64,000 nt of DNA from Pirellulaceae bacterium (GTDB lineage: Bacteria > Planctomycetota > Planctomycetia > Pirellulales > Pirellulaceae): the NCBI GenBank assembly GCA_022448315.1, contig JAKVCA010000022.1:1-64000 (forward strand), given 5' to 3'. Position 1 is the first letter of the stretch. Every line of letters begins with the position of its first letter. A program made the translations under genes and the position numbers. The notes under the pieces are model-generated. The model saw only the letters and a list, made by a program, of their open reading frames with translations, ran no database searches and was not told the origin of the DNA. Positions 54,082 to 56,498 of this stretch are shown here, piece after piece.

Positions 54082-54263
54082 CTTCAAGCATGCGTGCTTT
54101 TGAAATAAGAACACGCCGTTTGAAACATTGGTTGCCCAACACGCTCGTGGGAATGTCCCGCGATTCATTTTTTTGGAGTCTTCAAAGGAACCCTTGGGTA
54201 CTTAATCACGGGTAGGGGCAACCAGCCCCTTCAAGCGAGTTGGTCCCAAAACAAGGAGTTCCA

Positions 54264-54977
54264 ATGTTGGGCGGTAGCCGTATCTCTTCGGTTTGTATTC
54301 TGTTTTGTGTGATCGTTCTGCACTGGCTGAGCCCGCCAAGATCTCATGCTTCCATCCTCGTCGCCTACCCCTCGTTCGAAACGACCTCTTCAATCGAAGC
54401 CTCCGAATTGGCGGAGGGCATGCTTGCCGATCCGTTGCGGCGAGGCTTAGGTCTCCTCCCCGCATCGGGAGGCACGTTCAACTCTCGCAGTTGGTCGAGC
54501 CCGTCGATCGACCAAGCGAATGAGCGGGAGGAGCGACTCACATGGTGCATTCGCGGCAAAAAAGCGTTCCGGTTGGAAACATTACGGATCCGTTACGACC
54601 GTTCTCCATCGGGCCCTCAAAAGCTTGCAATCCAACTGGCGATCGACGGCGGAGTCTTCGAGAACCTCTTCATTGACGATGCGATCCGGGACGACTCGTC
54701 GGAGGACCATCTCATAGAATTGGATCGTTCGCGTCTCCTGACTGTGGCGGCTTTTCGGTTGGTTGCTTGGGACGCGCCACATCTCGCTGGAACTTTGGAT
54801 GTCGAAAACCACACGTTTGAGCCCCTCCGCTCCATCTCGATCAGCGGATCGCTTCTCCCAAAACCGGTTCCAGCCCCCAACGCGTTTCAGACATGGACGC
54901 TTACATTTGTCAGTCTGATCCTTCTCCGGAGAGTTGCCGGACGATTCAACCTCTTCTGGCACGCCCCGCAACTCTGA
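54264..54977 (+). CDS. exported protein with C-terminal anchor (PEP-CTERM-like)
   Basis: ATG 54264 has AAGGAG 5 nt upstream. The 237-residue product has a signal peptide (ISSVCILFCVIVLHWLSPPR region) and a beta-rich body (LRIRYDRSPSGPQKLAIQLA). The C-terminus reads KPVPAPN, then a hydrophobic stretch TWTLTFVSLILLRR. That is the order motif-helix-Arg of PEP-CTERM sorting signals, with PAPN in place of PEP and extra residues after the Arg pair. So it may be an exosortase substrate or a simple membrane-anchored protein. Confidence 0.6.
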   Translation: MLGGSRISSVCILFCVIVLHWLSPPRSHASILVAYPSFETTSSIEASELAEGMLADPLRRGLGLLPASGGTFNSRSWSSPSIDQANEREERLTWCIRGKKAFRLETLRIRYDRSPSGPQKLAIQLAIDGGVFENLFIDDAIRDDSSEDHLIELDRSRLLTVAAFRLVAWDAPHLAGTLDVENHTFEPLRSISISGSLLPKPVPAPNAFQTWTLTFVSLILLRRVAGRFNLFWHAPQL

Positions 54978-54985
54978 CTTCCATT

Positions 54986-55018
54986 AAAAAAACCCGATCG
55001 CCACAGAGGGCGACCGGG
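54986..55018 (-). terminator. intrinsic terminator, minus strand
   Basis: On the minus strand CCCGGTCGCC (55018-55009) pairs with GGCGATCGGG (55002-54993), one mismatch, followed by seven T residues (54992-54986). Confidence 0.88.
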
Positions 55019-55097
55019 CTGTAACTCGACTCGGCTTAGAATCTAAGGAGATTCCAATTCGAGCTGGTGGCTGCCGGTTGGCAACCCGCCAGTTGCC

Positions 55098-55139
55098 TTA
55101 GACGGAGCCACCTCGAAGGCTAGTACAGAAATAATTCAC
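55098..55139 (-). CDS. 13-codon mini-ORF with extreme Shine-Dalgarno site
   Basis: GTG at 55139-55137 begins a 13-residue peptide MNYFCTSLRGGSV, stop TAA at 55100-55098. The site AAAGGAGGTGAT (55154-55143) matches the 16S tail over 12 nt and places GGAGG 7 nt from the start, which is ideal spacing. The last codons (GGT GGC TCC) form the 5' arm of the long stem, so ribosomes would open it. Either a leader peptide or a short functional peptide is possible. Confidence 0.45.
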   Translation of the reverse strand: MNYFCTSLRGGSV

Positions 55140-55142
55140 AGA

Positions 55143-55154
55143 ATCACCTCCTTT
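55143..55154 (-). promoter_or_regulatory. 12-nt perfect anti-16S-tail (SD) sequence
   Basis: AAAGGAGGTGAT read on the minus strand complements the usual bacterial 16S 3' end (AUCACCUCCUUU) without mismatch. A downstream hairpin loop offers CTCCTT (55050-55045), which could pair with AAGGAG of this site. Confidence 0.75.
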
Positions 55155-55361
55155 CTCAAATCGAACCTCCCGCGCCGTCCCTAGTTTAGCCAACAGAAAG
55201 GGACAGCGATCGGGCGTTAAGTTAATCGCACTGCGTTGGTGCGACCCATGACTTTATTGTTTCATAAACAAGAATCGGAGCAAGCGGGAAAACAATATTT
55301 TCGGGCGGCATGATCCGGGTCTCGCGCGGCTTCTGAAGCCTCAGCGAGCCTTGTTCGATGG
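55155..55361. other. leader-side gap before the mini-gene
   Basis: About 200 bp between the LecA-like gene end and the mini-gene. It contains hairpins TCGCAC/GTGCGA (55226-55244) and a longer CTCGC.../...GCGAG (55321-55348) without T-runs. No promoter is clear. Confidence 0.4.
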
Positions 55362-56498
55362 TTAACGGGGCTCAAATTTCAACCGGACCTTGTATTCGCC
55401 CGGAAACTCGTACCCATTGTTGATAAAATTATCCATCATCGCGATGGACAGTTCGACAGTGCCGTCGCGTGGTGCGGTCAAAGTCTGCTCACGACCCACC
55501 AACTGCCAATCCCCTTTGCCGACACGAACGAGCACGGCACCGATCGGAAACTTGCCCATATAAGTCCCATAATCAGCCAGCCCGTCTGGTGTGGCCGTTT
55601 CGTCCCACGGACCGAGGTAAAGCGTGCCATCTACTTTAATCGAAAGCTCGTCACCTCGTTGGACTCGGATCTTGGTGGAAGCGGGGGTGCGCTGCACAAA
55701 ATTCTGGGCGTTCATTGTGAGATTACGGCTAATGGCGTCACGCGTCCCCCATTGTCGGGTGCCAAACTTGACGTCCGCCAGTTGAATCTTCAGATCACCA
55801 TATTTGCTCGCCAATGCGAACTCATCGCTCTGAATCTTCCCAACGATCGTGAAGTCATCGGTCACCACAGTGTCACCAAAAATCCACGGGGGATCCACGT
55901 CGGAATCATCCTCAAGATCCTGAAGTTCCTCCAGCCCTTTTTGGATCGTCTCCAAACGACGCTTGAGCTCTGAATCACCTTCATCCTCAACGGTACTCAG
56001 GTAATTCTTAATGGATAGTCCATACCCCATCAGCTCTTTCTGAGCCTGCTCGCGTTTCTCATAAGCCTCGTCGCCCAACTGCTGGACAAGCTGACCCAGT
56101 TTCTCCAGCAAGACCGGGTAACTCTTCAAACCCGGGCGCACGCTCTTCACTCGGGAAACGGGCACGGTCAGCGGGCCAAACTCAGTGGTCACCAACAACT
56201 CGGAAATCGCAAGTTCTCCAGTCACCACGGAACCGTCGTTGAGGTGCAAGCGGATTTCGTTCGGTTTCACCTTGATCACGGATCTGGGTAGCTCAATGGG
56301 TGCTCCATCATCTTGAACAGCCGCATCGCCACTCTCCTCACTCACAGAGTCCAAGGGCAAACCGCCAGCGATCTGCTCTCCAATACCTCGAAAGATATCG
56401 CGTAGATTGCCCTCATCTTGAGCCGAAAGCTGCGGGATGCAGAAGAGTGTTCCGCATAGAGCGAACGTGCAACACCATAGCCTGAGGAAGAACTTCAT
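55362..56498 (-). CDS. exported protein with LecA-like C-terminal domain
   Basis: 378 residues from ATG 56498 with a signal peptide (CTFALCGTLFCIPQLSAQ). Two similar beta units occur: IRLHLNDGSVVTGELAISEL with GPLTVPVSRVKSV, and TIVGKIQSDEFALASKYGDL with IQLADVKFG; these resemble LSm-like small barrels common in planctomycetes. A helical, acidic stretch separates them. The last 115 residues (RVQRGDELSIKVDGTLYLGP, PDGLADYG, IGAVLVRVGKG, NNGYEFPGEYKVRLKF) follow the beta-sandwich pattern of the galactose lectin PA-IL/LecA. Likely a surface carbohydrate- or protein-binding protein. Confidence 0.75.
   Translation of the reverse strand: MKFFLRLWCCTFALCGTLFCIPQLSAQDEGNLRDIFRGIGEQIAGGLPLDSVSEESGDAAVQDDGAPIELPRSVIKVKPNEIRLHLNDGSVVTGELAISELLVTTEFGPLTVPVSRVKSVRPGLKSYPVLLEKLGQLVQQLGDEAYEKREQAQKELMGYGLSIKNYLSTVEDEGDSELKRRLETIQKGLEELQDLEDDSDVDPPWIFGDTVVTDDFTIVGKIQSDEFALASKYGDLKIQLADVKFGTRQWGTRDAISRNLTMNAQNFVQRTPASTKIRVQRGDELSIKVDGTLYLGPWDETATPDGLADYGTYMGKFPIGAVLVRVGKGDWQLVGREQTLTAPRDGTVELSIAMMDNFINNGYEFPGEYKVRLKFEPR

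Follow-up and report, generated by a model that had tools for sequence, protein, structure and literature searches.

CC2171 (RF01867), an alphaproteobacterial sRNA, has a consensus that begins GAAAGGAGGUGAUCCAGUG and carries a GAAAGGAGGUGAUCC-AGUG block complementary to the 3' tail of 16S rRNA; a short ORF (MSHCH.., MSYSKRCHLAGIAR*) lies directly after this block, and the unit also has hairpins and a terminator. It was listed in a survey of Mesorhizobium (PMC5596092), and its structure was revised in Rfam 15 with one more covarying pair (PMC11701678). Amino-acid operon attenuators likewise contain a short ORF, the end of which joins a stem, as well as alternative stems and a terminator, and they have both a downstream operon and a run of regulatory codons. 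tmRNA is likewise present in one copy and encloses a small reading frame. Dual-function sRNAs, of the SgrS and RNAIII type, are stand-alone RNAs that carry a small ORF.

We analyzed a minus-strand unit located in a 64,000-nt stretch of DNA (the window) from a Pirellulaceae bacterium (assembly GCA_022448315.1, contig JAKVCA010000022.1, positions 1 to 64,000). Like CC2171, this planctomycete element combines hairpins and a terminator with a block that is complementary to the tail of 16S rRNA and is followed directly by a short ORF. Like the attenuators, it has a short ORF whose end joins a stem, with alternative pairing possible within the class, but it lacks both a downstream operon and a regulatory codon run and appears to be an autonomous gene. 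It shares with tmRNA its single copy and small reading frame, but is led by a Shine-Dalgarno sequence (SD) and has no tRNA-like domain. While it stands alone and carries a small ORF, as the dual-function sRNAs do, it is far more widely conserved than they are, and the SD is its most conserved part.

Organization of the minus-strand unit

A promoter-like site, TTGCTC-17 nt-ACAATA (55255..55283, minus strand, as are all features of the unit), was read from the sequence ~10 nt 5' of a hairpin, H0 (TCGCAC..ACGC..GTGCGA; 55226..55244). The site is too degenerate for a consensus promoter scan; in 65 relatives aligned on H0, a TTGC-like box recurs ~40 nt, and an AAT-like box ~15 nt, before that hairpin. 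H0 forms a 5' domain that is present in aligned class homologues, where the letters of the stem change and an NACGC loop recurs. It is followed by a second hairpin domain, H1 (CCCG../GTCCC..TTGGC..GGGAC/..CGGG; 55169..55216), which was also seen in homologues, where the letters of its stem differ and a TCTNTGGC/CTGG loop recurs. Next come the extended SD, GAAAGGAGGTGATTC (55141..55155), which is the site complementary to the 16S tail, and a predicted 13-codon ORF, MNYFCTSLRGGSV* (55098..55139), with a GTG start and a TAA stop, that is kept in homologues. Codons 9-11 of this ORF form the 5' arm of stem B (CGAGGTGGC; 55107..55115), the 3' arm of which is GCCACC..CTCG (55060..55071). Hairpin C1 (55080..55097), with a conserved C-GRCG-G loop, is situated between the two arms, immediately 3' of the stop codon. 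A hairpin with a CTCCTT loop (55039..55055) and an intrinsic terminator consisting of a 12-bp stem and a T run (54986..55020) complete the unit; a terminator-like hairpin was also found 3' of the element in most of the homologues that we read.

The initial annotation of this locus had described a compact structured unit with a 16S-tail site, a mini-ORF, nested stems, a CTCCTT-loop hairpin, and a terminator, and all of these are in place. The segment folds with a z-score of -3.8, and 0 of 200 shuffled versions folded as well. The predicted 3' end of the unit, at 54986, is unchanged; H0, H1, and the promoter-like site move the 5' start ~100 nt further upstream. Similarly, the anti-16S-tail site is present but is better called 13-15 nt than 12 nt.

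In the window, the unit is preceded by a gene that runs in the same direction (55362-56498) and converges with the next ORF downstream (54240-54977). In a set of 84 Pirellulales-type loci, the first ORF 3' of the element was on the same strand in 35 and on the opposite strand in 34, and the commonest neighboring family occurred near only 18 of the 84, at varying places. Further, the 10-kb neighborhoods contained no gene family that recurred beyond close relatives (many families compared, with the element located in 19). The suggestion that no gene follows the ORF is thus borne out family-wide. A short ORF, alternative stems within the class, and a terminator are what one would expect of a leader-peptide attenuator controlling a downstream gene; however, neither MNYFCTSLRGGSV nor the family in common has a run of codons for one amino acid, and together with the even orientations, the unconserved neighbors, and the convergent gene in the window, this makes an attenuator highly improbable. 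We therefore consider the element a stand-alone RNA gene, and a cis-regulatory leader was rejected.

Distribution in the Planctomycetota

With the DNA of this unit alone as query, blastn (E <= 0.01, best 3e-17) detected the element in 45 of 117 relatives besides its own genome, nearly always as a single copy, and the conserved core of these matches began exactly at the anti-16S-tail site. Three covariance models were then used: R1, built from 20 homologues; R2, retrained on 100 sequences from the class; and R3, retrained on 65 sequences from across the phylum. R1 matched 210 of 397 genomes in a draw from the order and 219 of 298 in one from the class, R2 matched 73 of 314 genomes in a phylum draw, and R3 matched 174 of 394 genomes drawn from the phylum (one apiece among the matches listed); with strict filters applied, these counts are likely lower bounds. 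The covariance search that had been suggested for this locus hence returned homologues, and they carry compensatory changes (see below). Among the carriers are Blastopirellula marina DSM 3645, Rhodopirellula europaea, R. rubra, R. solitaria, Roseimaritima, and Neorhodopirellula. When 84,980 species were scanned with a sequence pattern, 87 stretches matched, and every title that named a group was planctomycetal, the pattern being one derived from Pirellulales that remote relatives elsewhere may escape. Judged from these searches, the element is a single-copy small RNA gene kept across Planctomycetota and absent from Rfam: no Rfam family reached its gathering score at the unit or elsewhere in the window, nothing below that score was convincing, and a literature search brought up no account of such an element from planctomycetes.

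One genome gave two equal-scoring matches, each at a contig end (G233:C12:42-141 and G233:C14:211455-211554), which are probably one gene seen twice through an overlap in the assembly.

Other identities were considered and set aside. With one copy per genome, the element is not a repeat or a mobile element. Its exact pattern was found in none of the viral contigs, and a shorter SD pattern matched, in those contigs, only CC2171-like units or unrelated genes, so a phage-borne origin was rejected. Nor is it tmRNA (RF00023) in disguise, which had no match in the window and which was present separately, over the cut-off, in 23 of 30 relatives, or 6S RNA (RF00013), which had no match in the window or in the genome from which it comes. 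That genome (G000) yielded no tmRNA over the Rfam cut-off, as compared with the 23 of 30 relatives; assembly incompleteness is the probable reason.

Complementarity to the 16S rRNA tail

In planctomycetes, 16S genes terminate in CTGGATCACCTCCTTTCT or GTTGGATCACCTCCTTTCT, and we read the tail as ..GGATCACCTCCTTTCT; these ends come from planctomycete genes that matched a search pattern, a set to which the 16S end of the window's own genome does not belong. The sequence GAAAGGAGGTGATCC is a perfect 15-nt complement of this tail, and the copy in the window, GAAAGGAGGTGATTC, is complementary to it over 15 nt with one G-U pair. The site is near-invariant in class alignments as well as in 20 homologues inspected outside the class. 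As predicted from these gene ends, the complementarity of the element goes beyond CCUCC and takes in practically all of the single-stranded 3' tail of 16S rRNA.

Such a complement, at 13-15 nt the most conserved part of the element and in excess of what ordinary initiation needs, might serve a pure binder of the 30S subunit or the 16S tail, one that sequesters subunits or assists maturation of the 16S 3' end, with the ORF being incidental. We consider this unlikely, as a binder does not need an ORF, a frame, and a stop that are strictly kept with free choice among the stop codons.

The reading frame

All 168 distinct members from the class have an ORF of 10-18 codons, and in 112 of these it has 13. 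The starts are GTG (132), TTG (34), and ATG (2), the stops are TAA (63), TGA (54), and TAG (51), and changes in length are mostly of whole codons. Outside the class, an ORF of 9-13 codons was found in 20 of the 20 homologues inspected. The presence of the ORF in every class member, and the roughly equal use of the three stops, therefore suggest translation under selection: frame, start, and stop are, on this comparative evidence, selected features, with translation itself predicted.

Within Pirellulales, the peptide has a conserved C-T-S-Q-R-G-G core. Among the 141 members with the GG core, QRGG varies synonymously (CAG in 55 and CAA in 53 for Q; CGA, CGG, or AGA for R; and the second G too), while two other codons are fixed at the level of nucleotides (102 TGT vs 0 TGC, and 103 AGC vs 0 AGT). 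We therefore conclude that coding and RNA constraints overlap in the ORF. Between families, the peptides diverge strongly (for instance, MNYFCTSLRGGSV, MCSDNQGRLA, MKYDCTKGLRN, and MQCTRRCLT), and in the homologues read from outside the class, a basic residue recurs a few codons before the stop.

These data bear on the idea that the element is a micro-mRNA, the product of which is the 9-18-residue peptide and the stems of which regulate synthesis or protect the message. The constant presence of the ORF, the synonymous changes in the Pirellulales core, and the recurrent basic residue are all in keeping with this idea. Moreover, an ordinary, highly translated micro-mRNA could also have an extended SD and a short ORF, a point that counts against a ribosome-responsive role. 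Yet the peptides differ greatly between families, and the conserved codons make up a stem arm, TGT and AGC being held as nucleotides; on balance, we think a micro-mRNA somewhat unlikely.

A separate observation is a TGTA[CG][CT] motif in the ORF of the window (within 55107-55139) and of relatives, fixed in its nucleotides (at the conserved Cys, TGT and never TGC), that is present also in many members outside the class; no partner for it was found.

Covarying helices

In 100 class sequences, the six tested pairs of stem B and the seven of hairpin C1 were 94.7% paired, and all of them (6/6 and 7/7, or 13/13) had changed on both sides. Double-changed cells numbered 112 in this alignment (vs 36 in shuffles and 14-38 in slid controls), 73 in 20 sequences that come from outside the class and were aligned by a model that excluded them (vs 27), and 157 in the 65-sequence phylum alignment (vs 45 in shuffles); these counts were judged against shuffled or slid controls and not a phylogenetic null, and alignments fitted to a structure lean towards that structure. 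The sequences from outside the class were absent from the training of R2, and their covariation was far above both controls. From this pattern of paired change, the structure formed by stem B and C1 is evidently under selection. When plain RNAalifold was run on MAFFT alignments, the consensus folds were poor. In two members (L030 and L034), an extra small hairpin, CGAC..GTCG, is inserted in the loop that separates C1 from the 3' arm of stem B and leaves the flanking pairs intact.

A further helix, C2, would pair the central GGCTGCC with a downstream repeat. Within the class it had 38 double changes vs 10; outside the class it had 13 vs 16, which gives no support. As a general second fold, C2 was therefore dropped, with its support confined to the class.

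It had also been proposed that the CTCCTT loop could pair with the SD, giving two exclusive states. Complements to the SD of at least 7 nt are indeed enriched downstream, being found in 37 of 164 members (vs 9.5 expected); however, they occur in a minority only, and the CTCCTT loop, present in the window, is not a feature of the family. A general switch between SD and loop was accordingly dropped. The SD core has a predicted unpaired probability of 0.23, vs 0.29 in shuffled context, and this more paired state fits a folded form that hides the SD. From these folding models, hiding of the SD is plausible without one conserved helix that carries it.

CCACC/ACCU-type anti-SD stretches occur in some members. 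Taken with the stand-alone unit and its terminator, they could belong to a trans-acting sRNA of the dual-function kind, in which translation would expose or mask the segment that pairs with the target. Apart from the SD block and the C1 loop, however, we noticed no unpaired seed that is conserved phylum-wide, and we judge such a role quite unlikely.

Proposed mode of action

Across the genomes compared, the alignments establish a family with two covarying helices, a kept frame, a complement to the full 16S tail, and an absence of linked genes. Its geometry is general: the last codons of the ORF serve as one arm of stem B, with C1 just after the stop codon. The element looks like an old, unstudied ribosome-responsive RNA. 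We tentatively favor the reading that it is a ribosome-responsive mini-mRNA, encoded by a stand-alone, ~260-nt, single-copy RNA gene found across Planctomycetota; we regard this as a real possibility that falls short of being probable.

From these features, we infer docking, translation, refolding, and function as follows. A 30S subunit would dock by pairing with the element through its entire single-stranded 16S tail, initiation would take place at the weak GTG or TTG start, and 9-18 codons would be read before termination at the stop codon, which has the 5' arm of stem B on one side and hairpin C1 on the other. Given this geometry, a translating or terminating ribosome would have to melt both stem B and C1. 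The folded or open state of the RNA would then depend on ribosome occupancy, and with it the stability of the RNA or its activity in trans, such that the RNA may report or buffer SD-competent 30S subunits. Counting against the ribosome-responsive reading, the helix that would sequester the SD is not uniform, and the second fold, C2, is unsupported outside the class.

Relationship to CC2171 and implications

Of the families in Rfam, CC2171 comes closest to the planctomycete element. RF01867 scored 12.8 bits in the window against a curated cut-off of 75, and this cut-off was reached in none of 59 class genomes (best 39). Sub-threshold matches were present in 16 of the 59; 12 of these could be compared with R1 or R2, and all 12 fell on the element. 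Two unrelated control genes that share only the SD scored 19-21 bits with RF01867, vs up to 39 for planctomycete members. Conversely, the planctomycete model gave typical CC2171 members 22.5-26.0 bits, vs 24.5-25.4 for the SD-only controls, and gave one divergent CC2171 group 30-38 bits. The GAAAGGAGGUGAUCCAGUG block of CC2171 is matched in the planctomycete element by GAAAGGAGGTGATTCTGTG in the window and by GAAAGGAGGTGATCCAGTG in several relatives, but the ORFs, stems, and loops of the two could not be convincingly aligned. The initial annotation had recognized no matching family, which is correct as regards Rfam membership; nevertheless, CC2171 shares the site for the 16S tail as well as the short ORF and the terminator. 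A design common to CC2171 and the planctomycete element is clear.

A structured, single-copy RNA that is conserved throughout a phylum usually has a basic role, and this one is missing from Rfam. Its most constant part is the complement of the tail by which the ribosome recognizes mRNA, placed ahead of a tiny, kept ORF. We raise, as a doubtful extension, the idea of an ancient housekeeping class of RNA, present in Planctomycetota and perhaps, through CC2171, in Alphaproteobacteria, that would sense or buffer SD-competent 30S subunits via the whole 16S 3' tail and turn its own translation into a change of fold. Were the element to monitor or buffer free 30S subunits, bacteria would be gauging the state of their ribosomes by a new means, and, if true, the alphaproteobacterial CC2171 sRNA would gain a testable function. 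Cultured planctomycetes (Blastopirellula and Rhodopirellula species) carry the element, which makes these ideas directly testable.

Two observations were made on CC2171 itself. Three contigs from a viral collection (L282, L283, and L285) carry CC2171-like units with the ORF MSYSKRCHLAGIAR/MSYPKRCHLAEVAR that score 45-52 bits with RF01867, below its cut-off; in this group, the Cys-His-Leu codons TGTCACCTC are able to pair with the unit's own SD. On a plasmid of Methylobacterium radiotolerans, a CC2171 match that scores above the cut-off (L292, 1501-1674) is located ~0.9 kb before a 16S rRNA gene that runs in the same direction.
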